This document shows positions 6,435-25,322 of a stretch of 36,855 nt of DNA, in pieces. Positions within the stretch are counted from its first letter, which is position 1, and each line of letters starts with the position of its first letter. Both the position numbers and the translations under genes were made by a program. The stretch comes from Nevskia sp. (GTDB lineage: Bacteria; Pseudomonadota; Gammaproteobacteria; Nevskiales; Nevskiaceae). The notes beneath the pieces are model-generated. The model was not told the origin of the DNA, ran no database searches, and saw only the letters and a list, made by a program, of their open reading frames with translations. Location of the stretch: contig JARLJS010000065.1 of the NCBI GenBank assembly GCA_031291075.1, positions 1 through 36,855 of the forward strand, read 5' to 3'.

Positions 6435-6449
6435 TGGCACAACGGTTGC
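6435..6449 (+). promoter_or_regulatory. Sigma-54 (RpoN) -24/-12 promoter of the biuH-like gene
   Basis: TGGCAC-AACGG-TTGC matches the sigma-54 consensus TGGCAC-N5-TTGC at every conserved base, with the invariant GG and GC at correct spacing. The expected start is near 6460. I found no convincing NtrC pair upstream. The closest sequence, around 6390, has the wrong spacing. Confidence 0.85.
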
Positions 6450-6460
6450 TTGTATACAAG
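6449..6460 (+). promoter_or_regulatory. Palindromic operator CTTGTATACAAG (copy 1)
   Basis: A perfect 12-bp palindrome whose first base is the C of the -12 element, so a bound protein would cover the -12 to +1 region. The core TTGTATACAA recurs at 8472 and 25282. The TTGT...ACAA half-site style fits GntR/FCD regulators, two of which are encoded in the window (7647 and 19706). Confidence 0.8.
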
Positions 6461-6487
6461 ACGAACCGACCCCGGAGCCCGGCGCAC

Positions 6488-7171
6488 ATGACATTCGGCA
6501 CAGTTGCCGCGGAACCCTACCGCTGGCCCTTTGACGAGCGCTTCTCGGCGGCGGACACCGCGCTGGTCGTGATCGACATGCAGACCGACTTCTGCGGCCG
6601 TGGCGGCTACGTCGACAAGATGGGCTATGACCTGTCGCTGACACGGGCGCCGATCGGGCCGATCGGCAGGGTGCTGCAGCGCATGCGCACACTCGGCTTC
6701 GCCATCATCCATACCCGCGAAGGCCATCGGCCGGACTTGTCGGACCTGCCTGCGAACAAGCGCTGGCGCTCGCGCCAGATCGGTGCCGGTATCGGCGATC
6801 CCGGCCCTTGCGGCAGGATCCTGGTGCGTGGCGAGCCGGGCTGGGAGATCATCCCGGAACTGGCGCCGGCGGCGGGCGAGATCGTGATCGACAAGCCCGG
6901 CAAGGGCTCGTTCTGCGCCACCGACCTGGAGCTGATCCTGCGCACCCGCGGCATCCGCAACCTGATCCTGAGCGGCATCACCACCGACGTGTGCGTGCAC
7001 ACCACCATGCGCGAGGCCAACGACCGTGGCTTCGAGTGCCTGCTGCTGGAGGACTGCTGCGGCGCCACCGACCACGGCAACCATCTGGCTGCGCTCAAGA
7101 TGGTGAAGATGCAGGGGGGCGTGTTCGGCGCCGTGGCGGGATCGGAAAGCCTGCTGGCGGCGCTGGCCTGA
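6488..7171 (+). CDS. biuH: Biuret amidohydrolase-like cysteine hydrolase (isochorismatase-like family)
   Basis: A 227-residue protein starting at the ATG at 6488. It would hydrolyse biuret to allophanate plus ammonia in the cytoplasm. The triad is Asp30 (VVIDMQTDF), Lys136 ([10 protein letters not shown]) and Cys169 (TTDVCVHTT), with Gln209 (KMQGG). From memory, the characterised Rhizobium BiuH uses D36, K142, C175 and Q215, and all spacings here (106, 33, 40) are identical. Stretches such as [22 protein letters not shown] and DCCGATD also match what I recall of BiuH. It is followed by the AtzH-like gene, and the allophanate hydrolase that would take its product is in the divergent arm. A different ureido substrate cannot be excluded, but BiuH is the best reading. 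Confidence 0.82.
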
Positions 7172-7242
7172 GCGGTCAACAGGGCATGCGGCGCAGCGCG
7201 GCGTCGCATAGAATCGATCCCGGAACAAAGAAACACCCGCCT

Positions 7243-7647
7243 TTGGAAGACACGGCCGTCAACATTCCCGATGTGCTCGCCGAGCTGCGCACCGAATTCG
7301 AGCGCTACGAAGCCGCGCTGTTGCGCAACGACGTGCCCGTGCTGAACGACTACTTCTGGAACAGCGCCGAAACGGTGCGTTATGGCTTGGCCGAGCACAG
7401 CCTGGGCATCGCGGCGGTGCACGCGGCGCGGGCGGAACTGGCGCCGGTGCCGGCCGATCGCCGCCTGCAGCGCACGGTGATCACCACCTTCGGGCGCGAC
7501 GCCGGCAGCGTCAGCACCGAGTTCCAGGCGCCGGGCTCGCCGCTGGTCGGGCGCCAGACCCAGACCTGGATCCGCTTCGCCGGCCGCTGGCGCATCGTCG
7601 CCGCCCACGTCAGCACCGCCGACCCGGCGCGGCTGCGGCGCTACTGA
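7243..7647 (+). CDS. AtzH/HpxZ-like protein (DUF3225, NTF2-like fold)
   Basis: About 134 residues. The most likely start is the TTG at 7243. No ATG fits, and homologs begin a few residues before the conserved 'P-x-V-L-A-E...FERYEAAL'. The conserved pattern FERYEAALLRNDVPVLNDYFW, then VRYGLAEHSLG, then FQAPGSPLVGRQTQTWIRF matches the DUF3225 group. That group includes AtzH, which acts on 1,3-dicarboxyurea in cyanuric-acid breakdown and yields allophanate, and HpxZ of oxalurate catabolism. No AtzE/AtzG or HpxW partner is present. It overlaps the following regulator by one base (TGATG), implying translational coupling. The exact reaction is uncertain: it may handle a carboxylated intermediate of triuret or biuret breakdown. 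Confidence 0.7.
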   Translation: MEDTAVNIPDVLAELRTEFERYEAALLRNDVPVLNDYFWNSAETVRYGLAEHSLGIAAVHAARAELAPVPADRRLQRTVITTFGRDAGSVSTEFQAPGSPLVGRQTQTWIRFAGRWRIVAAHVSTADPARLRRY

Positions 7648-8384
7648 TGGCCAGGACGCCCGCCCCCGCCGAGCAGGCCGCCAGTCCCCCGCCCGCCAAT
7701 GCGCTGGCAGAGCAGGTCTATGTCGCCATCAAGGCCGAGATCTTCGACTTCCGGCTGCTGCCCGGCGACCGCTTCACCGAGACCGAGATCGCGCGACGGC
7801 TGGGCGTGTCGCGCACCCCGGTGCGCGACGCCCTCTACCGCCTCAAGCGGGAGGGCTATCTGGAAGTCGCCTTCCGCAACGGCTGGCGCGTACAGCCGCT
7901 CGACTTCGAGCGCTTCGACGAGCTTTACGACCTGCGCACGCTGCTGGAGACCGTGGCGCTGGAGCGGCTGTGCCAGAACGAGCTGCCGCCGCACATCGCC
8001 ACCCTGAAGGCGGTGTGGCTGGTACCGCCGGCCGAGCGCGAAACCGACCCGCGGCGGGTGGCGGAGCTGGACGAGGCGTTCCACTGCACCCTGGTCGAGG
8101 CGGCCGGCAACCAGGAAATGGCGCGGGTCCACGCCGACATCACCGAAAAGATCCGCATCATCCGCCGGCTGGACTTTCTCAAGCGGCCGCGCATCGAGAC
8201 CACCTACGAGGAGCACGGCAAGATCCTGCGCCTGCTGCAGCGCCGCAAGGCCACCGAAGCCGGCATCCTGCTGCGCTCGCACATCACCCAGAGCCGCAAC
8301 GAAGTGCGCAAGATCACCTTGCACATGCTTTACCAGGCGCGGCAGTCGGTGGAAGCCGCTACGCCGCGCTCCAAGCCACGCTGA
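7647..8384 (+). CDS. GntR-family transcriptional regulator with FCD domain
   Basis: A 245-residue protein. The ATG at 7647 overlaps the previous stop. The N-terminal winged helix spans about residues 18-85 (ALAEQVYVAIKAEI..., with SRTPVRDAL as recognition helix, then EGYLEV). The C-terminal all-helical FCD ligand and metal domain follows (LYDLRTLLETVALERL; conserved D...H residues around LDEAFHCTLVEAAGN and EEHGKIL). It is a clear paralog of the regulator at 18987-19706, with the same length, near-identical helix 3 and the shared IRIIRRLDF and RNEVRKITLHML-like blocks. It probably binds the TTGTATACAA palindromes. The effector is likely a pathway ureide. Confidence 0.88.
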   Translation: MARTPAPAEQAASPPPANALAEQVYVAIKAEIFDFRLLPGDRFTETEIARRLGVSRTPVRDALYRLKREGYLEVAFRNGWRVQPLDFERFDELYDLRTLLETVALERLCQNELPPHIATLKAVWLVPPAERETDPRRVAELDEAFHCTLVEAAGNQEMARVHADITEKIRIIRRLDFLKRPRIETTYEEHGKILRLLQRRKATEAGILLRSHITQSRNEVRKITLHMLYQARQSVEAATPRSKPR

Positions 8385-8448
8385 TCCCCGGCGTCGCTCC
8401 CCCAAGAGCCGATTCAGCCGATTCGCCGCGCCGCCCGGGCGCCGGCGG

Positions 8449-8463
8449 TGGCACAAGCTTTGC
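8449..8463 (+). promoter_or_regulatory. Sigma-54 promoter of the trtA-like gene
   Basis: TGGCAC-AAGCT-TTGC is a full consensus match with correct N5 spacing. The expected start is near 8474. It should drive the second cysteine hydrolase and the permease. Confidence 0.85.
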
Positions 8464-8470
8464 GTCCAAT

Positions 8471-8482
8471 CTTGTATACAAA
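8471..8482 (+). promoter_or_regulatory. Palindromic operator CTTGTATACAAA (copy 2)
   Basis: The 10-bp core TTGTATACAA is identical to copies 1 and 3. The outer base pair is broken here (C...A). It lies eight bases downstream of the -12 C, over the expected transcription start. Confidence 0.8.
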
Positions 8483-8512
8483 ACCCGTCGGACGACCTGA
8501 ACCAGGGTACGG

Positions 8513-9202
8513 ATGAACTCGACGATGGACCGGGACCAGCTGTTGAGCGTCGCCGCGGAACCGTACCCATTCGAGTTCCGCCCGGCCAGTTGCGCCCTGC
8601 TGGTGATCGACATGCAGCGCGACTTCCTGGAGCCGGGCGGCTTCGGCGCCGCGCTGGGCAACGATGTGAGCCTGCTGCGCAGCACCATCGCGCCGATCGG
8701 CCAGCTGCTGGCGGCTTGGCGCGCCGCCGGCCTGATGGTGCTGCACACCCGCGAGGGCCATCGCGCCGACCTGTCCGACCTGCCGCCGGCCAAGCGCGTG
8801 CGCGGCCGCTTCAAGACCCGCATCGGCGATGCGGGGCCGATGGGCCACATCCTGGTGCGCGGCGAACCCGGCCACGACATTATCCCGGAGCTCTACCCGG
8901 TGGCGGGCGAGCCGGTGATCGACAAGCCGGGCAAGGGCGCGTTCTGGGCCACCGACCTGCACGCCATCCTGCACCACCGCGGCATCCGCCAGCTCGTCGT
9001 CTGCGGCGTCACCACCGAGGTCTGCGTCAACACCACGGTGCGCGAGGCCAACGACCGCGGCTACGACTGCCTGGTGCCGGAGGACTGCGTGGCTTCCTAC
9101 ATGCCGGAGCTGCACCGCGCCGGCCTGGCCATGATCAAGGCCCAGGGCGGCATCTTCGGCTGGGTATCGCATTCACAGCGGCTGCTGCAGGCGCTCGCCT
9201 GA
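8513..9202 (+). CDS. trtA: Cysteine hydrolase paralogous to BiuH, candidate triuret hydrolase
   Basis: A 229-residue protein with its ATG at 8513, preceded by AGGGTACGG. The triad Asp33 (VIDMQRDF), Lys138 ([10 protein letters not shown]) and Cys171 (TTEVCVNTT), with Gln211 (KAQGG), has the same spacing as the gene at 6488. It lacks the BiuH-style DCCGATD block (DCVASYM instead) and has FLEPGGFG where BiuH has FCGRGGYV, so its substrate differs. Published work describes triuret hydrolase TrtA as a BiuH-like isochorismatase-family enzyme with about half identity to BiuH and encoded beside biuH. That fits this paralog pair. The product, carboxybiuret, decays to biuret. Specificity is inferred from context, not proven by motifs. 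Confidence 0.65.
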
Positions 9203-9251
9203 TGGCAGCGGCAGCCTGATTCCAACAGCTTCGCTCACAGGGGAACCGACG

Positions 9252-10871
9252 ATGGAAACCGCCGCCACCAGCAGCACAGAATTCAAGCCCAAGCTGTGGT
9301 CGCCCGGCGACTGGAACGCCTTCTTCGGCTTCGGCACCAACATCCTGGTCAACCTGCTCACGCTCACCGCGCTACTGCGCTTCGTGCTGAAGCTGCCGGA
9401 CCCGCTGGTGTTCGGACGGGTGCTGCCCGCCGCAGGCCTGATGATGGCCCTGTCGACGTTCTACTACGCCTGGCTCGCCTACCGGCTGGCGAAGAGCAGC
9501 GGCCGCGACGACGTCTGCGCCCTGCCCTCCGGCATCAGCGTACCGCACATGTTCGTGGTGGTGTTCGTCATCATGATGCCCATCGCCGCCAGGACCGGCG
9601 ATCCGGTCAAGGGCTGGGAGGCCGGGCTGACCTGGGTATTCGTGCAAAGCTTCGTGCTGATGGCGGGCGGCTTCGTGGCGCCCATCATCCGCAGGATCAC
9701 GCCGCGCGCCGCCCTGCTCGGCGCGCTGGCCAGCGTATCCATCGCCTTCATCTCGATGCGCCCCGCCCTGGACATGTACATGTCACCGGTGATCGGCATC
9801 GTCTGCTTCTCCATCCTGCTGGCGAGCTGGTTCGGCGGCGTGCGCTACCGCGGCGTCCCCGCCGGCCTGGTGGCGATCGCCGCCGGCTCTCTGATCGCCT
9901 GGGGTTCCACCGCGCTGGGCCTGAACTTCGGCGGCCTGAGCCTGTCCGGGCTCGGCGCCTCCTTCGCCAGCTTCGGCTTCGCGGTGCCGCTGCCGGCGGT
10001 CGGCCACGTCTTCTCCGGCTTCCAGTTCCTCGGCGTGATCCTGGTCACCGCCATCCCCTTCGGCATCTACGACCTGGTGGAGGCGATGAACAACATCGAG
10101 AGCGCCGCGGTCGGCGGCGACAGCTTCCCCACCACCCGCGTGCTCACCGCCGACGGCGTGGTCAGCCTGATCGGCTGCCTGATGGGCAACCCCTTCATCA
10201 ACGCGGTGTACATCGGCCACCCGGGCTGGAAGGCCATCGGCGGCCGCATCGGCTATTCCGCCGCCACCGGGACGATGGTGCTGGTGCTGTCCTGGTTCGG
10301 CATCATCGCCCTGATGATGGCCTTGATCCCGGTGGTGGCGATCTCGCCGATCCTGCTCTACATCGGCATGCTGATCGGCGCGCAGGCGTTCCAGGAGACG
10401 CCGCGCAGCCACGCGCCGGCGGTGATCCTGGCACTGGTGCCGCAGGTGGCGGGCTGGGCCAAGGGCCAGATCGACAGCGCGCTCGGCGCCGCCGGCACCA
10501 ATGTCGCGGCGGTGGGACTGGACAAGCTCGGCCAGAACGGCGTGCTCTACCAGGGCCTGCAGATCCTCGGCAGCGGCGCCATCCTGGTCAGCGTGATCCT
10601 CGCCTCCATCACCGCCTGCCTGATCGACCGCGCCTACGCCAAGGCCTCCGCCTTCGCCGTAGCCGGCGCGGTGCTGACCTTCTTCGGCTTCATGCACAGC
10701 GAGGCGATCGGCATCGGCAAGACGCCGCTGGTGGCGATCAGCTACCTGGGCGTGGCCGCGGTGCTGTTCGCCTGCAGCCGCTTCGCCGCGGCCCCCGCGC
10801 CGGCGACGCTATCCGCCGAACGGGAGGTGCTGGACAGCAGCGGGGCGATACCCGAGCCGGTGGCCGAATGA
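9252..10871 (+). CDS. NCS2/AzgA-like nucleobase-type permease
   Basis: A 539-residue integral inner-membrane protein with a good Shine-Dalgarno (AGGGGAA) before the ATG at 9252 and only 49 bp after the trtA-like gene, so probably co-transcribed. About a dozen hydrophobic segments run the full length. Features of the family are NTNILVNLLTL-like packing in the first helix, the DDVCALPSGIS region, and PFGIYDLVEAMNNIESAAVGGDSFPTTR-like signature text around residue 280, followed by GNPFINAVYIGHPGWK. Family members move purines, xanthine or urate by proton symport. Here the cluster suggests urate-, cyanurate- or oligo-urea-type substrates. Direction and substrate are inference. Confidence 0.8.
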   Translation: METAATSSTEFKPKLWSPGDWNAFFGFGTNILVNLLTLTALLRFVLKLPDPLVFGRVLPAAGLMMALSTFYYAWLAYRLAKSSGRDDVCALPSGISVPHMFVVVFVIMMPIAARTGDPVKGWEAGLTWVFVQSFVLMAGGFVAPIIRRITPRAALLGALASVSIAFISMRPALDMYMSPVIGIVCFSILLASWFGGVRYRGVPAGLVAIAAGSLIAWGSTALGLNFGGLSLSGLGASFASFGFAVPLPAVGHVFSGFQFLGVILVTAIPFGIYDLVEAMNNIESAAVGGDSFPTTRVLTADGVVSLIGCLMGNPFINAVYIGHPGWKAIGGRIGYSAATGTMVLVLSWFGIIALMMALIPVVAISPILLYIGMLIGAQAFQETPRSHAPAVILALVPQVAGWAKGQIDSALGAAGTNVAAVGLDKLGQNGVLYQGLQILGSGAILVSVILASITACLIDRAYAKASAFAVAGAVLTFFGFMHSEAIGIGKTPLVAISYLGVAAVLFACSRFAAAPAPATLSAEREVLDSSGAIPEPVAE

Positions 10872-11333: not shown

Positions 11334-11342
11334 TGCGGACTC

Positions 11343-11624
11343 TCAGCGCCAGGGATCACGTGGCGGTCGCAGGCGCTTGCGGGACGCCGCCACGTCCCTC
11401 TCGAAGCGTTCGCCGTCGCCTGGTGCCAGAGCCGGCAGACGATCCAGCAGCGCCGACAGCTCCGCCACGGTGATGCGATGCGGCATAGGACGCACGGGCA
11501 CCAATCGAGCCACCACTTCACGTCCACGCCGGATGTCGTAACTTGCACCGAAGTGGTTGACTTGGTCCAGGACGTCCGAGAAGTTGCGGGCAGCCTCGGT
11601 CGCGGTGAGGAGCTTGGGCGTCAT
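11343..11624 (-). CDS. Phd/YefM-type antitoxin
   Basis: A 93-residue protein. The ATG at 11624 is chosen over an upstream TTG because the Phd/YefM N-terminus (TPKLLTATEAARNFSDVLDQV) begins here. The 'ATEAARNFSDVLDQV...YDIRRGREVVARLVPV' block is the DNA-binding part of this family. The basic Arg/Pro-rich tail (RKRLRPPRDPW) would wrap the toxin. It pairs with the PIN toxin immediately downstream, a common mixed combination. It is likely autoregulated through the palindrome at 11645-11661. Confidence 0.82.
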   Translation of the reverse strand: MTPKLLTATEAARNFSDVLDQVNHFGASYDIRRGREVVARLVPVRPMPHRITVAELSALLDRLPALAPGDGERFERDVAASRKRLRPPRDPWR

Positions 11625-11644
11625 TTCAGCAGCAAAACCGATTA

Positions 11645-11740: not shown

Positions 11741-12460
11741 CTAAACCGTCAGATGCTGCCTCACCATCTCGTCGCTCAGCTCGCCGATGGCGCCGCCCGC
11801 CACCAGCCGACCCTTGTCGAGGATGTGGAAGTGGCTGGCCACGCGCCGCGCGAACGGCAGCTTCTGCTCCACCAGCAGCACGGTCAGGCCGTGCTCGGCA
11901 TTAAGGCGCAGGACGAGGTCGCCGATCTCGTGCACGATGTTGGGCTGGATGCCCTCGCAGGGCTCGTCCAGGATCAGCAGGCGCGGCCGCAGGATCAGGG
12001 CGCGGCCGATGGCGAGCTGCTGCTGCTGGCCACCGGAGAGGTCGCCGCCGCGGCGCCGGACCATCTGCTTGAGCACCGGGAACAGGGTGTAGATCTCCTC
12101 CAGCGCCCCGGCGACGGCCCCCTTGCGTGCGAACAGGCCGACGCGCAGGTTCTCCTCCACCGTGAGCTGCGGGAAGATCTCGCGGCCCTGCGGCACGTAG
12201 CCGATGCCGAGACCGGCACGGCGGTCGGCGTCCTGGCGCAGCAGGTCGCCGCCTTCGAAGCGGATCTCGCCGGAACTCACCGGCAGCAGGCCCATCACGC
12301 TCTTGAGCAGCGTGGTCTTGCCCATGCCGTTGCGGCCCATCAGGCAGGTGCGCGAGCCGGCCGGCACCGCCAGGTCGACGTCCCAAAGCGTATGGCTGCT
12401 GCGGTAGAACTGGTTGATCCCGCGCAGATCGAGCATCGCGGCAGTTGCATCCGCATTCAT
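11741..12460 (-). CDS. urtE: Urea ABC transporter ATP-binding protein UrtE
   Basis: A 239-residue protein. The ATG at 12460 is chosen because GGGAG lies nine bases before it. A longer upstream reading has no family support. Walker A is GRNGMGKTT, the Q-loop follows in YVPQGREIFPQL, the signature is LSGGQQQQLAIGRAL, and Walker B is LLILDEP followed by EGIQPNIV, the branched-chain/urea LivF-UrtE style. It is the last gene of the minus-strand operon. An inverted repeat separates it from urtD, unlike the overlapping urtB-C-D joints. Confidence 0.9.
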   Translation of the reverse strand: MNADATAAMLDLRGINQFYRSSHTLWDVDLAVPAGSRTCLMGRNGMGKTTLLKSVMGLLPVSSGEIRFEGGDLLRQDADRRAGLGIGYVPQGREIFPQLTVEENLRVGLFARKGAVAGALEEIYTLFPVLKQMVRRRGGDLSGGQQQQLAIGRALILRPRLLILDEPCEGIQPNIVHEIGDLVLRLNAEHGLTVLLVEQKLPFARRVASHFHILDKGRLVAGGAIGELSDEMVRQHLTV

Positions 12461-12492: not shown

Positions 12493-12592
12493 AGCAGTCC
12501 GCAAATGAACGCCAATACACGCAAATAAAGTCGATGTCGTCGGCTGCCGTGATTTTCTATTTGCGTTCATTTGCGTTCATTTGCGGACTGCT
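12493..12592. repeat. 34-bp inverted repeat between urtD and urtE
   Basis: The left arm 12493-12526 begins AGCAGTCCGCAAATGAACGC. The right arm 12559-12592 is its reverse complement at 31 of 34 positions. The loop is 32 bp. The right arm contains the unit TTTGCGTTCA twice in tandem. It ends exactly at the urtD stop codon. It looks like a mobile palindromic intergenic element, or a hairpin that tunes urtE expression. Confidence 0.75.
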
Positions 12593-13437
12593 CATTCGCC
12601 CAGGTAGACCTCGACCACGCGCGGATCGTTCTGCACCTGATCGATGGTGCCTTCCGCCAGCACGCTGCCCTCGTGCAGCACGGTGACGGTGCGGGCGATG
12701 GAACGCACGAAGTCCATGTCGTGCTCCACCACGATTACCGAGCGCTCGCCGGCCAGGCTCAGCAGCAGCTCGGCGGTGCGCTCGGTCTCCTGCGGCGTCA
12801 TCCCCGCCACCGGCTCGTCCACCAGCAGCAGGCGCGGCCGCTGCATCAGCAGCATGCCGATCTCCAGCCACTGCTTCTGGCCGTGCGACAGGCTGCCGGC
12901 GCGGGCGCCGCTGCGGTCCTTGAGGCCGACGAGTTGAAGGGTCTGTTCGATCGAGTCACGCTGCTCGCCGCTCAGCTTCGCGGCCAGCAGTTTCCAGGGC
13001 GAGCGGTCGCCGGCCATGGCCAGTTCCAGGTTTTCGAACACGCTGTGGTTCTCGAACACGGTGGGCCGCTGGAACTTGCGGCCGATGCCGCTCTGCGCGA
13101 TCTCGGGCTCGTCCAGGGCCAGCAGGTCGATGGTCTGGCCAAACCAGGCGGAGCCGTGGTCGGGCCGGGTCTTGCCGGTGATGACGTCCATCATGGTGGT
13201 CTTGCCGGCTCCGTTGGGGCCGATGATGCAGCGCAGCTCGCCGGCGTCGACGTACAGGGTCAGGGCGTTGAGCGCCTTGAAACCGTCGAAGCTGACGGTG
13301 ATGTCCTCCAGGTAGAGGATGGTGCCATGGCTGGCGTCGAGGTCGTCGGCACGCAGTGCCGAGCCGCGGCGGCGCAGCAGGCGCCGGTACGGCTGTTGCA
13401 GGCGTCCCGTCGTGGCGCGCACGGATGCCTGGTTCAT
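12592..13437 (-). CDS. urtD: Urea ABC transporter ATP-binding protein UrtD
   Basis: A 281-residue protein. The ATG at 13437 overlaps the urtC stop (ATGA). Walker A is GPNGAGKTTMMDVITGKTRP, the signature is LSHGQKQWLEIGMLL, and Walker B is LLLVDEPVAGMT, followed by the H-loop VVEHDMDF. This is the LivG/UrtD class. The first ~40 residues are an Arg-rich extension not needed for the ABC fold. Together with UrtE it powers the UrtBC channel. Confidence 0.92.
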   Translation of the reverse strand: MNQASVRATTGRLQQPYRRLLRRRGSALRADDLDASHGTILYLEDITVSFDGFKALNALTLYVDAGELRCIIGPNGAGKTTMMDVITGKTRPDHGSAWFGQTIDLLALDEPEIAQSGIGRKFQRPTVFENHSVFENLELAMAGDRSPWKLLAAKLSGEQRDSIEQTLQLVGLKDRSGARAGSLSHGQKQWLEIGMLLMQRPRLLLVDEPVAGMTPQETERTAELLLSLAGERSVIVVEHDMDFVRSIARTVTVLHEGSVLAEGTIDQVQNDPRVVEVYLGE

Positions 13438-14561
13438 GATCCGGCTCCCAGCCGCTGGCGCAGGAAGCCGACGATGCCCTGTGGCAGGAATACCGTCACC
13501 ACCACGAACAGGGCGCCGAGCGCATAGAGCCACACCTCCGGCAGCGCCGCGGTGAGCCAGGTTTTGGCGAAGTTCACCAGCACCGCGCCGAGCACCGCGC
13601 CATACAGCGTGTTGCGACCGCCCACCGCCACCCAGATTACCACCTCGATCGAGTTGATCGGCGCAAACTCGCCGGGGTTGATGATGCCCACCTGCGGCAC
13701 GTAAAGGGCGCCGGCGATGCCGGCCAGCACCGCCGAGAACACGAACAGCCACAGCTTGTAGTTCTCCACCCGATAGCCGATGAAGCGGGTACGGCTCTCG
13801 GCATCGCGGATCGCCTGCACCACCCGGCCGAAGCGCGAGGCGGCGATATGGCGGCAGGCGGCATAGCCCAGGCCCAATGCCCCGGCGCTGACCAGGAACA
13901 GGCCGACACGGGTGCTGTCGCGGTGCAGATCGAAGCCGAGCAGGTCCTTGAAGTCGGTCAGGCCGTTGTTGCCGCCGAAGCCCATCTCGTTGCGGAAGAA
14001 GGCGAGCATCAGGGCATAGGTCAGGGCCTGCGTGATGATCGACAGGTACACGCCGGTGACGCGCGAGCGGAATGCGAACCAGCCGAAGGCCAGGGCCAGC
14101 AGGCCGGGCGCAAGCAGGATCATCGGCAGGGCGAAGGCGAAGCTGTCGAAGCCGTGCCAGTACCAGGGCAGCGCCTTCCAGTTGAGGAACACCATGAAGT
14201 CCGGCAGCAGCGGATCGCCGTAGACGCCGCGGCTGCCGATCTGACGCATCATGTACATGCCCATGGCGTAGCCGCCGAGGGCGAAGAAGGCGGTGTGGCC
14301 CAGGGTCAGGATGCCGCAGTAGCCCCACACCAGGTCCACCGCGATCGCCAGCAGGGCATAGCTCATGTACTTGCCGAGCAGGGTCACGGTGTAGGTGGAC
14401 AGGTGCAGGGCCGAGCTTTCCGGCACTGCCAGGTTCAGCAGAGGCACCAGCAGGGCGGCGGCCAGCAGCACGGCGTAGAACACGCGTCCACCGAAGTCGC
14501 CACCGGACGCTGCGGCCGGGGCGGCATGGCGGACCTGCCCCAGGCGCATGATGCGGATCAT
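13434..14561 (-). CDS. urtC: Urea ABC transporter permease UrtC
   Basis: A 375-residue inner-membrane protein of the LivM/UrtC class. The ATG at 14561 overlaps the urtB stop by four bases. Multiple hydrophobic helices are present. Conserved stretches include VDLVWGYCGILTLGHTAFFALGGYAMGMYM-like text near residue 80, NNGLTDF, and the EAA-like loop QAIRDAESRTRFIGYRVENYKL. Length is normal for the family. It partners with UrtB to form the membrane channel. Confidence 0.92.
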   Translation of the reverse strand: MIRIMRLGQVRHAAPAAASGGDFGGRVFYAVLLAAALLVPLLNLAVPESSALHLSTYTVTLLGKYMSYALLAIAVDLVWGYCGILTLGHTAFFALGGYAMGMYMMRQIGSRGVYGDPLLPDFMVFLNWKALPWYWHGFDSFAFALPMILLAPGLLALAFGWFAFRSRVTGVYLSIITQALTYALMLAFFRNEMGFGGNNGLTDFKDLLGFDLHRDSTRVGLFLVSAGALGLGYAACRHIAASRFGRVVQAIRDAESRTRFIGYRVENYKLWLFVFSAVLAGIAGALYVPQVGIINPGEFAPINSIEVVIWVAVGGRNTLYGAVLGAVLVNFAKTWLTAALPEVWLYALGALFVVVTVFLPQGIVGFLRQRLGAGS

Positions 14562-17776: not shown

Positions 17777-18913
17777 TCAGATCTGCAGCTGCAGGCCGAT
17801 GCCGACCTGCTTCTGGTCGGGCAGCCCGGCTTCCTGATAGGCGCCCTTGTAGAACATGCTGATGCGGGCGTTGAAGGCCTTGATGACGTAGTTGACGTCG
17901 AACTCGGCGGTGCGCTGGGCGTATTCGTTCGGGTCCTTCACGGTCGGCGTGTCGTCGAACTTGGCGCGGCCGTACTTGCCCAGGAGCTGGAACTTGCCGA
18001 TGCCGACCTGCTGCGGGAACAGATAGCTGAGCAGGGCGTAGTAGCCGTTGCTGTCGGCGTAGCTGCCGTCGAAGCCGCCATAGCCGGCGAGCCGGTTGTA
18101 GCGGGTGTACTCGCTCTCCAGCGTGACTACGCCGGCGTTCGGCAGCTTCTTCTCCATCAGCAGGTCGACGCTCAAATCGTGGCCCTTGGCCATGGTCTCG
18201 CCGGCCAGGCCCAACGCCAGGATGTCCTTCTCGCCGTAGTAGGTGCCGTTGAGGTAATAGCCGGGTTCCGGGTCCCAGAAATCGACCTGCAGGCGGCCGG
18301 CGCTCAGCACCTTGGACTGGTCCTTGAGCGAGCCGGTGGCGGACGGCGCGTCGAACACGCCGGCCGAGACCTTGACGATGCCGAACTGGCCCCAGTAGGC
18401 GGCGCCGTTCTGGCGCCCGACCGCCACCGACGGGTAGCCGTCCTGCACACCGTCCTCGTACACCTTCCAGTTGTTGGCGTAGTACGGACCGTACAGGTTG
18501 GCGCGATCGCTGGGCGGCAGGAAGCGGCCGGCCCAGATGTTGAGCTTGTCGCTGTACTCGAAGCGGCCGATGGCGTCCATCACCTGCACCGCGTTGCTGC
18601 CGGTCGGCGGGCTGCCGGTGTACTCAGTGTTGAAGGTGAACTTGAACTGATCCGTCGCGGCGCCGTTCAAGTAGAGACGGACGCTGTCCAGCGAGAAGCG
18701 ATTGGCGTCCGGCGTGGTACCGATGGCGTCGGTGTGGGTAAAGCTCGTACGCAGGCCGGCGCCCACGGAAATCGGCGGCAGCGTCACCGTGGGCGTGGGA
18801 ATGGTGATGTCGGCCAATGCAGCACCGGCCGGCAAGGCCAGCAGCAGCGTCCCCACACCCCGGTACAGCAGTCCCTGCACTGCCTTCTCCCTGTCCCTCT
18901 TTACTCTTTTCAT
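17777..18913 (-). CDS. Outer-membrane porin, probable ureide/urea porin
   Basis: A 378-residue protein. The ATG at 18913 has GGAGAG six bases before it. A basic stretch (MKRVKRDREK) precedes the signal peptide (GVGTLLLALPAGAALA). The mature chain has alternating beta-strand patterning rich in Tyr, Phe, Gly and Asp (RFSLDSVRLYLNG, FKFTFNTEYTG, GYYLNGTYYGEKD, FDVNYVIKAFNARISMFYKG) and ends in a strand with a hydrophobic terminal residue, as for trimeric porins. Its position between the regulator and urtA suggests it lets urea or oligo-ureas across the outer membrane. Specificity is inferred from context. Confidence 0.8.
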   Translation of the reverse strand: MKRVKRDREKAVQGLLYRGVGTLLLALPAGAALADITIPTPTVTLPPISVGAGLRTSFTHTDAIGTTPDANRFSLDSVRLYLNGAATDQFKFTFNTEYTGSPPTGSNAVQVMDAIGRFEYSDKLNIWAGRFLPPSDRANLYGPYYANNWKVYEDGVQDGYPSVAVGRQNGAAYWGQFGIVKVSAGVFDAPSATGSLKDQSKVLSAGRLQVDFWDPEPGYYLNGTYYGEKDILALGLAGETMAKGHDLSVDLLMEKKLPNAGVVTLESEYTRYNRLAGYGGFDGSYADSNGYYALLSYLFPQQVGIGKFQLLGKYGRAKFDDTPTVKDPNEYAQRTAEFDVNYVIKAFNARISMFYKGAYQEAGLPDQKQVGIGLQLQI

Positions 18914-18986: not shown

Positions 18987-19706
18987 TCAACCGGATGCTT
19001 TTTCCTCCAGCGGCCGCCGGGCCATGTGGAGCATGTGCAAGGTGATCTTGCGCACCTCCGCCTTGCTCTCTTCGATATGCGTCTTCAGCAGCAGCTGCGA
19101 CTGCTCGCAACGGCGCTGCAGCACCGCGCGCAGGATCTTGCCGTGCTCGGTGTAGGTCGCCTCGATGCGCGGCGCCTTGATGAAGTCGAGCCGCCGGATG
19201 ATGCGGATCCGCTCGGTAATGCCGTGGTGGATCTGCGCCATCTCGGCATTGCCGGTGGCCTCCACCAGCATCTCGTGGAAGCGCTCGTCGAGGGCGGAGA
19301 CGGTGCTGCCGTCGTCGAGCCGGTCCGCCGCTGGCACCAGCCAGATGCGCTTGAGGTCGGCCAGCCCGGCCGGCGCGGCCTCCATCTCGCACAGGCGCTT
19401 GACGGCGGCGGTCTCGAGGATGATGCGGACGTCGTAGAGGTTCTCGAACACCTCGAAGTCGAACGGCCGCACCTGCCAGCCGCTGCGATACAGCACTTCG
19501 ACATAGCCCTCGCGCTGCAGCCGCAGCAGCGCCTCGCGCACCGGCGTGCGGCTGGCCTGCATGCGCTCGGCGATCTCGTTCTCGCTGAAGCGGTCGCCCG
19601 GCAGCAGGCCGAAGCCGAAGATGTCCTGCTTGATCTGTTCGTAGATGCGATGCGCCAGGTTTTCACCGCGCGCTCCGGCGCGGCCGCGCGTCGACGCCAT
19701 GGGCAT
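18987..19706 (-). CDS. GntR-family regulator with FCD domain (second paralog)
   Basis: A 239-residue protein. The ATG at 19706 is chosen because GGAGCGGGG precedes it. Six codons later the winged helix begins (NLAHRIYEQIKQDIFGFGLLPGDRF, SRTPVREALLRLQREGYVEV). The FCD domain follows (YDVRIILETAAVKRL, LDERFHEMLVEATGNAEM, RIIRRLDF, TEHGKIL, KAEVRKITLHML). It is a close paralog of 7647-8384. It lies 32 bp after the urea carboxylase stop and 73 bp before the porin, so the operon encodes its own regulator. It should recognise the same TTGTATACAA sites as its paralog, raising the possibility of competition or different effectors. Confidence 0.88.
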   Translation of the reverse strand: MPMASTRGRAGARGENLAHRIYEQIKQDIFGFGLLPGDRFSENEIAERMQASRTPVREALLRLQREGYVEVLYRSGWQVRPFDFEVFENLYDVRIILETAAVKRLCEMEAAPAGLADLKRIWLVPAADRLDDGSTVSALDERFHEMLVEATGNAEMAQIHHGITERIRIIRRLDFIKAPRIEATYTEHGKILRAVLQRRCEQSQLLLKTHIEESKAEVRKITLHMLHMARRPLEEKASG

Positions 19707-19738: not shown

Positions 19739-22700
19739 TCACGGCAGCTCCGCCTCGGCGATCACGATCAGCACCTCGCCCGCGGATACCGGCCGGCCCT
19801 GGCGGCAGTGCACCGCCCGCACCACACCGGTGACCGGCGCGTGCACCGCGAATTCCATCTTCATGGCCTCGATCACCAGCAGCGCCTCGCCGCGCCGCAC
19901 CTCGGCGCCCAGCTCGGCCAGCAGCTTCCACACGTTGCCGCTGATATCGGCCGCCACGACATGTCCCTCGACCGGCTCCGCCGCCGCGGCGCGCACTTCC
20001 TCGGCCGCTTCCGCCGCGGCCCCGGCGCCGGCCTGCCAGTGCGCCACCTCGGCGTCGAAAGCGACTTTCTGGCGCGCGCGGAAGCGCGCCACGTCCGGCT
20101 CGATCTGCGCCAGGAAGCGGTTGTAGGCGGCGAAATCGAACACCTCCTCACGGATGTCGATGGCCAGGCGGCCCTCGCGGAAGGCCTCGCGCTGCTCGGT
20201 GAGTTCGGCTTCCTCCACCGGGTAGAAGCGCACCTGGTCGAAGAACCGCAGCAGCCAGGGCTCGCCGGGCTTGAACACCGGGTTCTTGAGGAACTTGTTC
20301 CAGATCGGCAGGGTGCGCCCCACCAGCTGGTAGCCGCCGGGCGAGTCCATGCCGTAGATACACATGTAGACACCGCCGATGCCGACGGTGCCCTCGGCGG
20401 TATAGGTGCGCGCCGGGTTGTACTTGGAGGTGAGCAGGCGGTGCCGCGGGTCCACCGGCACCGCGCAGGGCGCGCCCAGGTAGACGTCGCCCAACCCCAG
20501 CACCAGGTAGCTGGCCTGGAACACGATGTCGCGCACCTGCTCGACGCTATCGAGGCCGTTGATGCGGCGCATGAACTCGACGTTGCTGGGCAGCCACGGC
20601 GCGGTGTCGCGCACCGACTGGCGGTAGCGGGCGACGGCGTCGAGGGTGGCGGAATCCTGCCAGGCCATCGGCAGGTGCACGACGCGGGTCGGCACCTTCA
20701 TGTCGTCGACCGGCGGCAGGCGCTCCTCGGCCTTGAGCAGCGCGTCCATCAGCCGTCCCTGCGGGATGGTGCGGCTGTCGTAGTGCACCTGCAGCGAGCG
20801 CACGCCGGGCGACAGCTCCAGGATGCCCGGGATGGGCCGCGCGCGCAGCTCCTGCATCAGCGCGTGCACCCGCATGCGCAGCGCCAGGTCCAGCACCATC
20901 GGCCCGTACTCGATCAATATGTAGCGGTCGCCGGCCTGGCGGTAGGCCACCTGCGGCCGTGCCGTGGTCCGCGGCAACTCGGCGATGACGGTCTCCGACA
21001 CGGTACGCCGCGGCGCCGCCATCGCCAGCGCGATCGGGGCGGGCTCGACCGCGGCCAGCCGCTCGATCGCGGCATCCTGGGCCCGCTCAAGCTCCAATGC
21101 CTGCTCGAAACCGATGCGGCGGAAGCGGATGCGATCGCCGGGCTTGACCTGCCCCACCTTCCACAACTCGGCCTTGGCGATGGTCACCGGGCAGACGAAG
21201 CCGCCCAGGCTGGGGCCATCGCGGGTCAGGATCACCGGCATGTCGCCGGTGAAGTTGATCGAGCCGATGGCGTATTCGCAGTCGTGGATGTTGGACGGGT
21301 GCAGCCCGGCCTCGCCGCCGTCACTGCGCGTCCACGATGGCTTGGGGCCGACCAGGCGGACGCCGAGGCGGTTGGAGTTGTAGTGCACTTCCCAGGCGGT
21401 GGTGAAGAAATCGCGGATCGATGCCTCGGTGAAGAAATCCGGCGCGCCGTGCGGACCGTACAGCACACCGATATTCCATTCGCTGCCATAGGCCGGGACC
21501 AGCGCTGCCGGCGCCGCCGCCGGAACGCTGGCGGCCGGCGCGTCCCCCAGTCGCAGCAGGTCGCCGCCGCGCACAGGCCGCCCGGCATGGCCGCCGAACT
21601 GGCCGAGGGCGAAGGTGGATTTCGAGCCAAGGTAGGCCGGCACGTCGATGCCGCCGCGCACCGCCAGGTAGATGCGGCAGCCGCTTGCGACCTTGCCGAT
21701 GCGCAGGGTCTGCCCCGCCTTCACCTCGAGCGGCGTCCACGGCGCAACCGGCAGGCCGTCCAGCGTCGCCGCGGCCGGATCGCCGGCCAGGGCGACGACG
21801 GCGGCGCCGTGAAAGCGCAGGCCCGGGCCGAGGATGGTGCATTCCAGGCCCGCCGCGTCGGGGCCATTACCGACGATGCGGTTGGCCATGCGGAAGGCAT
21901 AGTCGTCCATCGGACCCGAGGGCGGCACACCGACGTCCCAGTAGCCGACCCGGCCGGGATAGTCCTGCACCGTGGTGTAGGTGCCGGGCTCCAGCACCTC
22001 GATCGCCCGCGGCGCGTACGCGAAGGTATCGAGGAAGCGGGTCGATACCTCGCCCGCCTTGAAGCGTTCGCTGGCCAGGATCTGCCGCAGGTAATCGACG
22101 TTGGTGGCGATGCCGGACAGGTGGGTCTGCGCAAGGGCATCTTGCATCGCCGCGACGGCGGCGGCGCGGTCCGCGCCGTGCACGATCAGCTTGGCCAGCA
22201 TGGGATCGTAGTGCGGCGTGACCTCGGTACCGGTGGCGACCCAGCCGTCGACCCGCGCGTCCGGCGGGAACATCACCTCCGTCAGCACGCCCGGCGAGGG
22301 CTGGAAGTTGCGCACCGGGTCCTCGGCGTAGATGCGCACCTCCAGCGCCGCGCCCTGCGGCTGTGACCGGAACGCCGCCAGGTCGGGCGGCTCGCCGGCG
22401 GCGGTGAGGACCATCCATTCGACCAGGTCGACGCCGGTCACCGCCTCGGTGATCGGATGCTCCACCTGCAGGCGCGTGTTCACCTCGAGGAAGTAAAAAG
22501 CGTCGCGCGCCGCGTCGTAGATGAACTCCACCGTGCCGGCGCTGCTGTAGCCGACGGCGCGTCCCAGATCGACCGCCGCCTGCAGCAGTGCAGCGCGCGT
22601 GGCCGGCGGCAGCCTGGGTGCCGGCGTTTCCTCGATCACCTTCTGGTTACGGCGCTGCACCGAGCAGTCGCGCTCGCCCAGCGCGATGACCTGGCCGCGG

Positions 22701-23353
22701 CCGTCACCGAAGATCTGCACCTCGACGTGGCGCGCATTGTCGATGCAGCGTTCCAGGAACACGCCGGCATCGTTGAAGAAGCTCTTGCCGAGGCGCTGCA
22801 CCGACTCGTAGGCCGCGGCCAGCGCGGCGGCGTCGGTACAGCGGGTCAGGCCGATACCGCCGCCGCCGGCGGTGCTCTTGAGCATCACCGGGTAACCGAG
22901 CTGCGCCGCGGCCGCGATCGCTTCCTCCACGCTGCCGAGCAGCCCGGTGCCCGGCGTGAGCGGCACGCCGGCGGCGCGCGCAATCTCGCGCGATTCGTGC
23001 TTGAGCCCGAAGCGCCGGATCTGTTCCGGCGTGGGGCCGATGAACACCAGGCCGGCGTGCGCGCAGGATTGCGCGAAGGCGGTGTTCTCCGACAGGAAGC
23101 CGTAGCCGGGAATCACCGCCTGCGCGCCGCTGCCATGGGCGGCGGCGATGACGTGATCGCCGCGCAGGTAGGACTCCGCCGGGGCCGCCGGCCCGATGCA
23201 GACCGCCGCGTCGCAGGCGGCGACATGGGCACTGTTGCGGTCGGCCTCGGAGTAGACCGCGACGCTACGGATGCCCATCCGTTTGAGCGTGCGCGCGATG
23301 CGCACGGCGATCTCGCCGCGGTTGGCGATCAGCACTGTGTCGAAGCGGCTCAC
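19739..23353 (-). CDS. uca: Urea carboxylase (biotin-dependent)
   Basis: A 1204-residue protein starting with the GTG at 23353 (MSRFDTVLIANRGEIAVR). It carboxylates urea to allophanate using ATP and bicarbonate. Biotin carboxylase spans about residues 1-450 (LKSTAGGGGIGLTR ATP loop, GERDCSVQRRNQKVIEETPA, EVNTRLQVEHPITEAV). A carboxyltransferase half of KipA/KipI type spans about 465-1080 (VQDYPGRVGYWDVGVPPSGPMD; NIHDCEYAIGSINFTGDMP). A C-terminal biotinyl domain has VIEAMKME with biotinyl Lys1165. Length is full. The carboxyguanidine deiminase genes that accompany guanidine carboxylases are absent, and a urea transporter follows. Urea is therefore favoured over guanidine as substrate. Confidence 0.9.
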   Translation of the reverse strand: MSRFDTVLIANRGEIAVRIARTLKRMGIRSVAVYSEADRNSAHVAACDAAVCIGPAAPAESYLRGDHVIAAAHGSGAQAVIPGYGFLSENTAFAQSCAHAGLVFIGPTPEQIRRFGLKHESREIARAAGVPLTPGTGLLGSVEEAIAAAAQLGYPVMLKSTAGGGGIGLTRCTDAAALAAAYESVQRLGKSFFNDAGVFLERCIDNARHVEVQIFGDGRGQVIALGERDCSVQRRNQKVIEETPAPRLPPATRAALLQAAVDLGRAVGYSSAGTVEFIYDAARDAFYFLEVNTRLQVEHPITEAVTGVDLVEWMVLTAAGEPPDLAAFRSQPQGAALEVRIYAEDPVRNFQPSPGVLTEVMFPPDARVDGWVATGTEVTPHYDPMLAKLIVHGADRAAAVAAMQDALAQTHLSGIATNVDYLRQILASERFKAGEVSTRFLDTFAYAPRAIEVLEPGTYTTVQDYPGRVGYWDVGVPPSGPMDDYAFRMANRIVGNGPDAAGLECTILGPGLRFHGAAVVALAGDPAAATLDGLPVAPWTPLEVKAGQTLRIGKVASGCRIYLAVRGGIDVPAYLGSKSTFALGQFGGHAGRPVRGGDLLRLGDAPAASVPAAAPAALVPAYGSEWNIGVLYGPHGAPDFFTEASIRDFFTTAWEVHYNSNRLGVRLVGPKPSWTRSDGGEAGLHPSNIHDCEYAIGSINFTGDMPVILTRDGPSLGGFVCPVTIAKAELWKVGQVKPGDRIRFRRIGFEQALELERAQDAAIERLAAVEPAPIALAMAAPRRTVSETVIAELPRTTARPQVAYRQAGDRYILIEYGPMVLDLALRMRVHALMQELRARPIPGILELSPGVRSLQVHYDSRTIPQGRLMDALLKAEERLPPVDDMKVPTRVVHLPMAWQDSATLDAVARYRQSVRDTAPWLPSNVEFMRRINGLDSVEQVRDIVFQASYLVLGLGDVYLGAPCAVPVDPRHRLLTSKYNPARTYTAEGTVGIGGVYMCIYGMDSPGGYQLVGRTLPIWNKFLKNPVFKPGEPWLLRFFDQVRFYPVEEAELTEQREAFREGRLAIDIREEVFDFAAYNRFLAQIEPDVARFRARQKVAFDAEVAHWQAGAGAAAEAAEEVRAAAAEPVEGHVVAADISGNVWKLLAELGAEVRRGEALLVIEAMKMEFAVHAPVTGVVRAVHCRQGRPVSAGEVLIVIAEAELP

Positions 23354-23450
23354 TGGTGCACCTTCACGGCAAGGTCAGTGGTGGCCCGCCATGAGCCGGC
23401 GCGCGCCTCCCGCACCCACAGCCCTTGGGGCCGGCACCGTGTCGGCGCGC

Positions 23451-25265
23451 TCATGCCCGTCCCTCCCGCTGTGCCGCCAGGTAGGCGCGCCAGCCGCCGC
23501 TGGCGGTGATGTCGCGCGCGTCGCGCAGCGCCCAGGGTTCGCAGATGAAGCCCTTCACCTGCCGCCCGTCGGCCAGCTCCAGCGTGCCGATGCCCAGCGG
23601 CGGCGGCACCCCGGCGACGAAGGAGCCGAACGCGGCCAATGGCATGTCCCACAGCTCGACCTGGATCGGCGCTCCATCGCCGGTCTTCACCAGGCCGGGC
23701 TTGGGCGGCACGGTTCCGGCCAGCGCATAGAGGCGGTAGGCGGCGGAGGTGGTGGTGGCTTCCACGAACACCGCCTCCCGCTCGGTCAGCTCGCGGTTGA
23801 GCGGCATTCCCGACAAATGCGCCCCGACCACCGCCAGTCGTACCGCCTCCGCCTGCAGCGGCGGGGGCCCGTCCGCCGCCGCCGGCGGCGCGGAGCGGCC
23901 GGTGGCACCCAGGGTCCACGGCGCCTGCGCCTGCCAGGCGCGGCCGAAGGCGGCCAGGGCCGCGTCGTGCCAGGCCGGCGCGATCATTGTCACGCCGAAC
24001 GGCAGGCCGTCCTCGCGGAAGCCCGCCGGTAGCGCCAGCGCGCACCAGTCGAGCAGGTTGACGAAGTTGGTGTAGGTGCCGAGGCGGCTGTTGAGGCCGA
24101 TCGGGTCCGCCTCCACTTCGGCGATGGTGTAGATGGTGGGCGCGGTGGGCACCAGCAGCGCGTCGACCCGGGCGATCAACTGGTCCGCCACGCGCTTGAG
24201 CGCGGCGCGGCGGTACTCCGCCTTGAATGCCTCGGCGGCGTTGAGGCTGGCGGCGCGGCCGATGATCTCGCGCACCACCGGGTGCACGGCTTCGGCGTGA
24301 TCGCGCAGGAAGCCTTCGATCGCGACATAGCGCTCCGCCACCCAGGGACCGTTGTAGAGCAGCGCCGCGATCTCGTGCAGCACCGAGAAATCCAGCGGCA
24401 CCAGTTCCACCCCCAGGGCCTGCACGGTGCCCAGGGCGGCCTTGAACGCGCGTTCCGACAGCGCGTCGCCGAACCACTGCGGGGTCTGCGGCACGCCCAG
24501 GCGCGCCGGCCGCTGGAATCGCCGGCCGGCGGCCAGCGGCGGCGTGGCGCGCGAATAGGGATCTTCCGCATCGAAGCCCGCCACCTGTTCGAACACGGCG
24601 TAGGCGTCCTCGACCGTCAAGGCGAACACCGAAATGCAATCGAGCGTGCGGCACGCCGGCACCATGCCGCAGGAACTCACCGCCCCGCGCGTCGGCTTTA
24701 GCCCGACGATGTTGTTGAAGCTGGCCGGCACCCGGCCGGAGCCGGCCGTATCGGTGCCCAGCGCGAACGGCACGATGCCGCGCGCCACCACCGAGGCCGA
24801 GCCGGAACTGGAGCCGCCGCCGACGAAACGCTCGTCGAAGGCGTTAGGCACGGCACCGTACGGCGAGCGCATACCGACCAGGCCGGTGGCGAACTGGTCG
24901 AGGTTGGTCTTGCCGATCACGATCGCCCCGGCCTCGGTCAGCCGCTGCACCGCGGCCGCCGCCCGCTGCGGCAGGTAGGCGAACTCAGGGCAGGCCGCCG
25001 TGGTGGGGACGCCGGCGACGTCGATGTTGTCCTTTACCGCGAACGGAATGCCGTACAGCGGCAGGCGGGCGAAGTCGCCGCCGGCCGCAGCCAGGGCCTG
25101 TTCGACACGCCCGGCCTGCGCCCGCAGCTCCGCCGCCGGGAACAGCCGGATCCAGGCCGGATCGTCGCGTTCCAGACCGGCGGCGAGCGCTTCCATCGCG
25201 GCGGCTGGCCGCAGCTGTCCGCCCAGGTAGGCGGCGCGCCACTCGCTGAGAGTCTGCCCTTTCAT
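23451..25265 (-). CDS. atzF: Allophanate hydrolase (amidase-signature family)
   Basis: A 604-residue protein with its ATG at 25265. It hydrolyses allophanate to ammonia and CO2, the shared last step for biuret and urea. The amidase triad is Lys78 (FAVKDNID), Ser152 (GGGSSSGSA) and nucleophile Ser176 (DTAGSGRVP). The spacings (74 and 24) equal those I recall for Pseudomonas AtzF (K91, S165, S189). The C-terminal ~150 residues (LTEREAVFVEATTTSAAYRLYAL...FGSFVAGVPPPLGIGTLELADG) form the extra AtzF domain. It is the first gene of the minus-strand operon, under a sigma-54 promoter, palindrome and NtrC sites. 97 bp separate it from uca. Confidence 0.93.
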   Translation of the reverse strand: MKGQTLSEWRAAYLGGQLRPAAAMEALAAGLERDDPAWIRLFPAAELRAQAGRVEQALAAAGGDFARLPLYGIPFAVKDNIDVAGVPTTAACPEFAYLPQRAAAAVQRLTEAGAIVIGKTNLDQFATGLVGMRSPYGAVPNAFDERFVGGGSSSGSASVVARGIVPFALGTDTAGSGRVPASFNNIVGLKPTRGAVSSCGMVPACRTLDCISVFALTVEDAYAVFEQVAGFDAEDPYSRATPPLAAGRRFQRPARLGVPQTPQWFGDALSERAFKAALGTVQALGVELVPLDFSVLHEIAALLYNGPWVAERYVAIEGFLRDHAEAVHPVVREIIGRAASLNAAEAFKAEYRRAALKRVADQLIARVDALLVPTAPTIYTIAEVEADPIGLNSRLGTYTNFVNLLDWCALALPAGFREDGLPFGVTMIAPAWHDAALAAFGRAWQAQAPWTLGATGRSAPPAAADGPPPLQAEAVRLAVVGAHLSGMPLNRELTEREAVFVEATTTSAAYRLYALAGTVPPKPGLVKTGDGAPIQVELWDMPLAAFGSFVAGVPPPLGIGTLELADGRQVKGFICEPWALRDARDITASGGWRAYLAAQREGRA

Positions 25266-25280
25266 CGGCTGGAATACCCA

Positions 25281-25292
25281 CTTGTATACAAG
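25281..25292 (-). promoter_or_regulatory. Palindromic operator CTTGTATACAAG (copy 3)
   Basis: A perfect 12-bp palindrome identical to copy 1, 16 bases downstream of the -12 C of the atzF sigma-54 promoter and 15 bases before the atzF start codon. It lies just after the predicted transcription start, a typical repressor roadblock position. Confidence 0.82.
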
Positions 25293-25307
25293 ATGAAATA
25301 CTTCAAT

Positions 25308-25322
25308 GCATAGGCCGTGCCA
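25308..25322 (-). promoter_or_regulatory. Sigma-54 promoter of the atzF-uca-urt operon
   Basis: On the minus strand TGGCAC-GGCCT-ATGC has the invariant GG and GC at correct spacing, with one deviation from TTGC. The predicted start is near 25297. It reads toward atzF. Confidence 0.8.

Follow-up and report, generated by a model that had tools for sequence, protein, structure and literature searches.

Sigma-54 promoters that are in addition controlled by a substrate-specific repressor are exemplified by histidine utilization in Pseudomonas. There the footprint of the GntR-family repressor HutC at hutU covers 51 bp and overlaps the sigma-54 site (PMC12977541), and the promoter is activated by NtrC and CbrB (PMC8871633), according to the excerpts of both papers that we consulted. 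We analyzed a stretch of 36,855 nucleotides from Nevskia sp. (contig JARLJS010000065.1, in the following called the window), in which three gene units for the use of oligo-ureas, headed by biuH, a trtA-like gene and atzF, each carry a sigma-54 element followed by the same GntR-type palindrome, TTGTATACAA. The three units probably form one small regulon, in which sigma-54 promoters would be gated by FCD-type GntR repressors with NtrC as the most likely activator.

As far as the same excerpts describe it, hutU shares with this locus a GntR-superfamily regulator (the repressor HutC there, candidate repressors here) and a GT/AC palindrome (TGTA-N2-TACA for HutC) in the sigma-54 promoter region. 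The activation of hutU by NtrC and CbrB when nitrogen or carbon is limiting, and the relief of its repression by urocanate, also resemble the logic proposed here, and by this analogy AND logic is known in kind from HutC/hutU. An earlier note on this DNA, whose author knew of no such combination, had missed this precedent (PMC12977541, PMC8871633). The two systems differ in that the HutC subfamily is not of the FCD type, the operator is spaced differently, the substrate is histidine instead of oligo-ureas, and there is one repressor gene instead of two paralogues. The FCD domains of the regulators and the absence of the two central bases from the operator (TGTATACA) set this locus apart from HutC systems. 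What is new here is the involvement of FCD regulators and of a ureide regulon, together with a single operator for which two paralogues are candidate repressors, and the fact that the arrangement recurs in relatives.

Two further systems are said to come close. In Pseudomonas sp. ADP, AtzR reportedly represses the sigma-54 promoter PatzR, with NtrC; nitrogen scavenging of the cyanuric acid/biuret type and a specific regulator on a sigma-54 promoter are shared, but AtzR is reportedly a LysR protein whose site and logic differ. HpxS of Klebsiella pneumoniae is described as a GntR regulator of a ureide (allantoin) operon that is also under nitrogen control, although the promoter is said to be of the sigma-70 type and to work with NAC instead of sigma-54. 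The NtrC regulon reconstructed by comparative genomics is predicted to include atzF and urt, genes also present here, and no GntR operator is named at them in the portion of the study consulted (PMC5343134). Work on the triuret pathway TrtA/BiuH/AtzF deals with the same enzymes and describes no promoter or operator in the portions consulted (PMC7948467, PMC12625717). The words promoter and GntR are absent from the main text of PMC7948467, and a legend to biuH contigs from ammonia oxidisers includes a gntR gene (PMC12625717, in part). Searching for TTGTATACAA as literature text gave no paper on this subject by title among the matches listed, and the exact fusion of FCD-GntR operator and sigma-54 promoter at ureide genes was not recognised by title or start of abstract among the matches listed from the open-licence literature.

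Paired elements at three units

The three sigma-54 elements and the common palindrome, which the earlier note had described with gaps of 0 (biuH), 8 (trtA) and 16 bases (atzF), were found as exact matches (Table 1). Each pair stands before the first gene of its unit, and at all three units the operator is located in the sigma-54 promoter region. We take the C of (A/T)TGC to be position -12, which sets the predicted starts used here. The palindrome is then predicted to lie before the start at biuH, across it at trtA and after it at atzF, and the earlier placing of the palindrome over the start site is retained for trtA only. Including its flanks the palindrome is a perfect 12-mer, CTTGTATACAAG, at biuH and atzF; at trtA it reads CTTGTATACAAA. 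The description of the palindrome as a GntR-type operator next to a sigma-54 element is borne out, as TTGTATACAA fits the operator consensus of the FadR subfamily, NyGTM-N0-1-KACNy, with N0 (PMC4494728, in the excerpt consulted).

We assessed how often the elements occur alone and paired. The exact pattern TGGCAC-N5-WTGC, which puts the GG of -24 and the GC of -12 ten bases apart, is present in the window at these three places only, with TTGC at two of them and ATGC at atzF, and with one mismatch it is found 9 times, which is not above chance. TTGTATACAA with up to two mismatches occurs at 5 places in the window (1.45 expected). In 200 dinucleotide shuffles of the window, 0 exact palindromes and 0 fused elements were obtained, exact sigma-54 elements amounting to 0.3 per shuffle. 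In the whole assembly of this genome (5,648,424 bases in 302 contigs, 97% complete) exact TTGTATACAA occurs 3 times, where 0.36 would be expected from the base composition of the window, and all three copies are those of the three units, in agreement with the earlier proposal of a single regulon. Exact TGGCAC-N5-(A/T)TGC occurs 22 times in the genome vs 12 for the letter-reversed control. Many of these elements are therefore possibly due to chance, and the element alone says little, the pairing much: 3/3 palindromes sit 0–25 bases downstream of one of the 22 elements (p ~1e-12 for random independent placement).

That the pairs reflect chance, or DNA copied between the three promoters, we consider practically negligible. 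Beyond the short shared motifs nothing speaks for it, whereas each of the three promoters has a 5-base sequence of its own between -24 and -12 and its own spacer. Chance is rejected by the window shuffles, the genome counts and the placement, and is made very unlikely by the latter together with the conservation at atzF and trtA described below.

Two further possibilities were discarded. No fourth member of the regulon was found in the genome: one-mismatch palindromes are not commoner than in the letter-reversed control (11, exact ones included, vs 16), and 0/8 of those outside the window adjoin a sigma-54 element. An RNA hairpin was set aside on principle, as a loop-less 12-base palindrome cannot fold on itself. 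The 15-mer of the atzF promoter, TGGCACGGCCTATGC, recurs exactly at two other places of the genome (G000:C218:77645-77659 and G000:C252:16979-16993).

Occurrence in related and distant genomes

A search of 61 genomes for AtzF gave 35 matches in 33 of them (own included); for 30 loci we read the 350 bases upstream. An element was called fused if the operator followed the sigma-54 element, with up to two mismatches tolerated in each. When AtzF was at least 60% identical (14 loci, own included), the fused element preceded atzF in 13; the operator was exact in 3 of them, had one mismatch in 9 (7 TTGTATACAT, 2 TTGTACACAA) and two mismatches in 1. In the unfused exception (L124) atzF follows the permease of a trtA unit, and it is the promoter of that unit that carries the fusion (L185). 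Loci with atzF followed by biuH had the operator in 8/8 cases and the fusion in 6/8, and neither element was found in any of the 7 loci with uca before atzF (uca homologue 45–49%).

TrtA was found in 18/58 genomes of the family, with a fused element upstream of trtA in 12/18, counting the own genome; 3 of these 12 have an exact operator and 9 an operator with one mismatch. Shuffled trtA upstream sequences gave the fused element in 0/1800 cases. The distance from the element to trtA is 64 bases in the own genome, ~0.2 kb in 2 of the fused loci and ~1.0–1.1 kb in 9/12. The ~1 kb between element and gene was seen in L190 and L192–L199; in L181, from the same genome as L194, the gap of ~1 kb contains two overlapping open frames, the minus-strand one without a Pfam family. 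BiuH was found in 11/369 genomes of the class. Ten stretches around BiuH, from 9/10 of the other genomes, included 3 with a fused element on the same strand, 3.6–4.3 kb upstream of biuH, one of these with a two-mismatch sigma-54 element and one with a one-mismatch operator. Among the remaining stretches 2 had a one-mismatch operator only, and 5 were without an exact or fused operator, lone one-mismatch operators being uncounted there. The fusion thus characterizes the family and occurs here and there beyond it: conservation in orthologous loci, on which the earlier note had made its proposal depend, is seen in the family and becomes patchy outside.

In four loci (L141 and L143 of the atzF-biuH type, L204 and L206 of trtA) the operator is present and no sigma-54 element was found. 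It thus appears that the operator goes with the regulator and not with the class of promoter. In L141 and L143 the operator stands ~57 bases ahead of the atzF start (itself approximate), and TTGTCA-N18-TATACA can be read over it, as if the promoter class had changed while the operator stayed the same. These two loci would suit a reading in which the TGGCAC elements are incidental and the palindrome itself is the promoter core, supplying TATACA as a sigma-70 -10 element. We regard this as very improbable, because in the own genome each of the 3 exact palindromes comes after an exact sigma-54 element, and because the family retains the pairing with both halves near consensus.

We also scanned a collection of genome contigs (genome_contigs) with the fused pattern alone. 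The scan returned at least 115 stretches with 116 sites; the figures given here refer to the matches listed. At 48/116 sites a gene for BiuH, TrtA, Uca or AtzF (at least 48% identity) is located on the same strand within 1.5 kb, 12/48 of these being from Achromobacter. Before ureide genes the spacing of the operator ranges from 4 to 22 bases, and such variability is as expected for occlusion. A homologue of GntR1 or GntR2, the two regulators of the window (E-value 1e-10), was present in 50/115 loci, which are at most 8 kb long, a count that stands without a background rate. The other sites comprised 20 with a distantly related gntR as first gene, 6 classed as having no room and 42 others. Some stretches are surely chance matches, e.g. 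those of a cyanobacterium (L065) and of Streptomyces (L118); to our knowledge both groups lack sigma-54.

A few of the sites outside the 48 were examined. The 20 gntR-first sites, L032 among them, belong to Azospirillum, Ancylobacter and kin, with the fused element before the distant gntR. Only L032 was scanned against Pfam; there an FCD-type gntR is followed by an ATP-binding cassette (ABC) system with a family-3 binding protein. Elsewhere the fused element stands at a cytosine/purine-type permease (L027) or a Bmp-type ABC system (L024). Kosakonia (L029) and other enterobacteria (also L009, L034, L069, L084, L095) carry it with a gap of 21 bases; the gene that follows in L029 belongs to the polysaccharide-deacetylase family and is allantoinase-like by reading. 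It is possible, though on balance doubtful, that FCD-GntR operators fused to sigma-54 promoters constitute a widespread two-key grammar of nitrogen scavenging in Alpha-, Beta- and Gammaproteobacteria, used for ureide and other N-compound transport operons, with an operator sliding from -11 to beyond the start; in the present locus two paralogous repressors would then read one operator and allophanate would induce.

Candidate repressors, activator and inducer

Where the earlier note implied one gntR, the window contains two FCD-GntR genes, GntR1 and GntR2, which are 59% identical and both located inside the regulated units. Their products may bind TTGTATACAA, singly or both. In an alignment with 35 homologues, S, R, T, P and the last R of the motif SRTPVR are present in 37/37 sequences and V in 33. 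The same 37 sequences all carry D (32) or E (5) followed by H, H and H at the positions which we take to be the FCD metal site. In a quick tree, the support of which was not inspected, GntR1 groups with regulators of biuH/trtA clusters and GntR2 with regulators of Alcanivorax atzF operons; from this placement they look like old paralogues and may share one operator. Among solved structures 14 sequences are related to GntR1, half of them named only GntR-family regulators.

Judged from the sequence, control could proceed as follows. Under nitrogen limitation an enhancer-binding activator, most likely NtrC, would render sigma-54 polymerase active at the three promoters. A dimer of GntR1 and/or GntR2 on the operator between -11 and +15 would block the polymerase or open-complex formation, and an inducer, a metabolite of the pathway, would release it. 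Transcription would then need both nitrogen limitation and the metabolite. As both repressor genes are inside units they would control, negative autoregulation and a self-limiting repression would result. FCD metal sites bind carboxylate ligands; since allophanate is a carboxylate and common to the biuret and urea branches, our guess for the inducer is allophanate. If the gating by GntR is true, the cost of uptake and hydrolysis of oligo-ureas would be paid only when the cell is starved for nitrogen and the compound is present. It would provide a testable handle on the scavenging of fertiliser impurities such as triuret, a short sequence signature predicting further regulon members in genomes without annotation, and a naturally occurring example of an operator possibly common to two diverged repressors.

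With its variable position the operator is easier to reconcile with occlusion than with activation. We consider it improbable that the GntR protein is a dual regulator which, once it has bound its ligand, also acts as an activator, as is reported for the allantoin-responsive GntR protein HpxS of Klebsiella. Such a role would be favored by L142, in which a one-mismatch operator immediately precedes the -24 of an exact sigma-54 element, one base upstream (206–181 bases before atzF). The window and all 31 fused loci (own counted twice), on the other hand, have the operator downstream of -12 at variable spacing, a placement that makes activation unlikely; this order was a requirement of the fusion test, L142 being the one reversed case met.

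NtrC sites have the spacing GCAC-N7-GTGC. For Pseudomonas the site is given as GCACCA-N3-TGGTGC (PMC12977541, in the excerpt consulted). The own genome encodes two sigma-54 proteins (PF00309 above cut-off) and an NtrC above cut-off. Upstream regions of the listed scan loci contain GCAC-N7-GTGC in 22/108 cases vs 0–4 for spacers of 4–6 and 8–10 bases, and 18/22 of these sites are positioned 95–160 bases before TGGCAC. As 13 of the 22 regions are from Achromobacter they are not independent.

Several observations weigh against the scheme of NtrC-driven, GntR-gated promoters. The fusion is not universal: it is absent in 6/18 trtA loci, lies ~1.0–1.1 kb from the gene in 9/12 of the fused ones and is patchy outside the family (3/10 BiuH stretches), and L142 has the reversed order. 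In an even sample of 369 genomes of the class the order described here occurred 3 times (own included), the reversed order 0 times and the letter-reversed control 0 times, numbers too small to carry more than little weight. Two candidate repressors are present for one site, and either could matter. With regard to NtrC, exact GCAC-N7-GTGC was found within 400 bases upstream of atzF only and not of biuH or trtA, the window shows no clear enrichment (6 vs 3, 0 and 5 for spacers of 6, 8 and 9 bases), and without Achromobacter the enrichment in the listed scan loci is reduced to 9 regions vs at most 4. The genome also holds 7 other matches to the NtrC model above 300 bits. For biuH and trtA, NtrC is thus inferred. 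The same architecture could instead be driven at these two units by another enhancer-binding protein, carbon- or substrate-responsive. The missing sites and the additional NtrC-model matches would agree with this, as would hutU as a GntR-gated promoter common to CbrB and NtrC (PMC8871633, in part). We nevertheless think this rather unlikely in view of the enriched sites in the scan loci, Achromobacter included, and of predicted NtrC regulons comprising atzF in Rhizobiales and urt in several orders (PMC5343134, in the portion consulted).

Genes of the units and their surroundings

The genes of the window form two convergent groups, on the plus strand from 6488 to 10871 and on the minus strand from 25265 down to 11741 (Table 1), and those of each unit are presumably co-transcribed. 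The oligo-urea function assigned in the earlier note agrees with the protein models: the biuret and allophanate enzymes of the pathway, BiuH (NF050097) and AtzF (TIGR02713), are both over the NCBIfam cut-off, as are Uca and UrtA to UrtE.

Table 1. Genes and control elements of the three units in the window
Feature	Positions	Strand	Support and remarks
Sigma-54 -24/-12 element TGGCACAACGGTTGC, biuH unit	6435..6449	+	exact match
GntR-type operator TTGTATACAA, biuH unit	6450..6459		exact; directly after -12; predicted -11 to -2
biuH, biuret amidohydrolase	6488..7171	+	NCBIfam NF050097, 418.5 bits (cut-off 370)
AtzH-like gene, candidate decarboxylase	7243..7647	+	Pfam PF11533, 1e-44
GntR1, FCD-type GntR regulator	7647..8384	+	Pfam GntR 2.4e-16, FCD 2e-20
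Sigma-54 element TGGCACAAGCTTTGC, trtA unit	8449..8463	+	exact match
Operator TTGTATACAA, trtA unit	8472..8481		exact; predicted -3 to +7
trtA-like hydrolase, isochorismatase fold	8513..9202	+	Pfam PF00857; 60% to BiuH of window
Permease-like protein, 539 aa, candidate importer	9252..10871	+	hydrophobic sequence judged by eye
urtE, ATP-binding subunit	11741..12460	-	TIGR03410, 311.9 bits (cut-off 285.8)
urtD, ATP-binding subunit	12592..13437	-	TIGR03411, 389.8 bits (cut-off 304.1)
urtC, permease subunit	13434..14561	-	TIGR03408, 445.1 bits (cut-off 296.2)
urtB, permease subunit (start approximate)	14558..16198	-	TIGR03409, 428 bits (cut-off 250.3)
urtA, urea ABC-transporter binding protein	16426..17715	-	TIGR03407, 555.8 bits (cut-off 492.75)
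Porin-like protein	17777..18913	-	ExtI-porin model 55 bits, far under cut-off 150
GntR2, second FCD-type GntR regulator	18987..19700	-	Pfam FCD 2.2e-18, GntR 8.9e-17
uca, urea carboxylase	19739..23353	-	TIGR02712, 1934.5 bits (cut-off 1304)
atzF, allophanate hydrolase	23451..25265	-	TIGR02713, 839.9 bits (cut-off 511)
Operator TTGTATACAA, atzF unit	25282..25291		exact; predicted +6 to +15
Sigma-54 element TGGCACGGCCTATGC, atzF unit	25308..25322	-	exact match
NtrC-like site GCAC-N7-GTGC	25411..25425	-	centre ~122 bases upstream of predicted atzF start; weak alone

The TrtA-like protein is related to BiuH and reaches 278.5 bits with the BiuH model NF050097, under the cut-off of 370. As no characterised TrtA was compared, its name is a matter of resemblance, and on this resemblance the protein is a putative triuret hydrolase. 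The permease-like protein encoded next to it matched 0 Pfam families (E-value up to 0.1) and 0 NCBIfam families and had no relative among solved structures up to an E-value of 1. Homologues with 70–87% identity adjoin trtA in many loci. Not covered by the curated families, this protein is a candidate for the import of triuret or biuret. For similar clusters the excerpt consulted names trtB as a putative carboxybiuret decarboxylase (PMC12625717), and the AtzH-like gene is a candidate for its counterpart here. By reading of the sequence, the start of GntR1 overlaps the stop of the AtzH-like gene. The porin-like gene has homologues at the same place in L184 and L050.

Between the two gene groups (11000–11640) small minus-strand genes were seen, toxin-antitoxin-like by eye. 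Beside the atzF unit (25982–30814) response regulators with GGDEF-EAL and HDOD domains are located.

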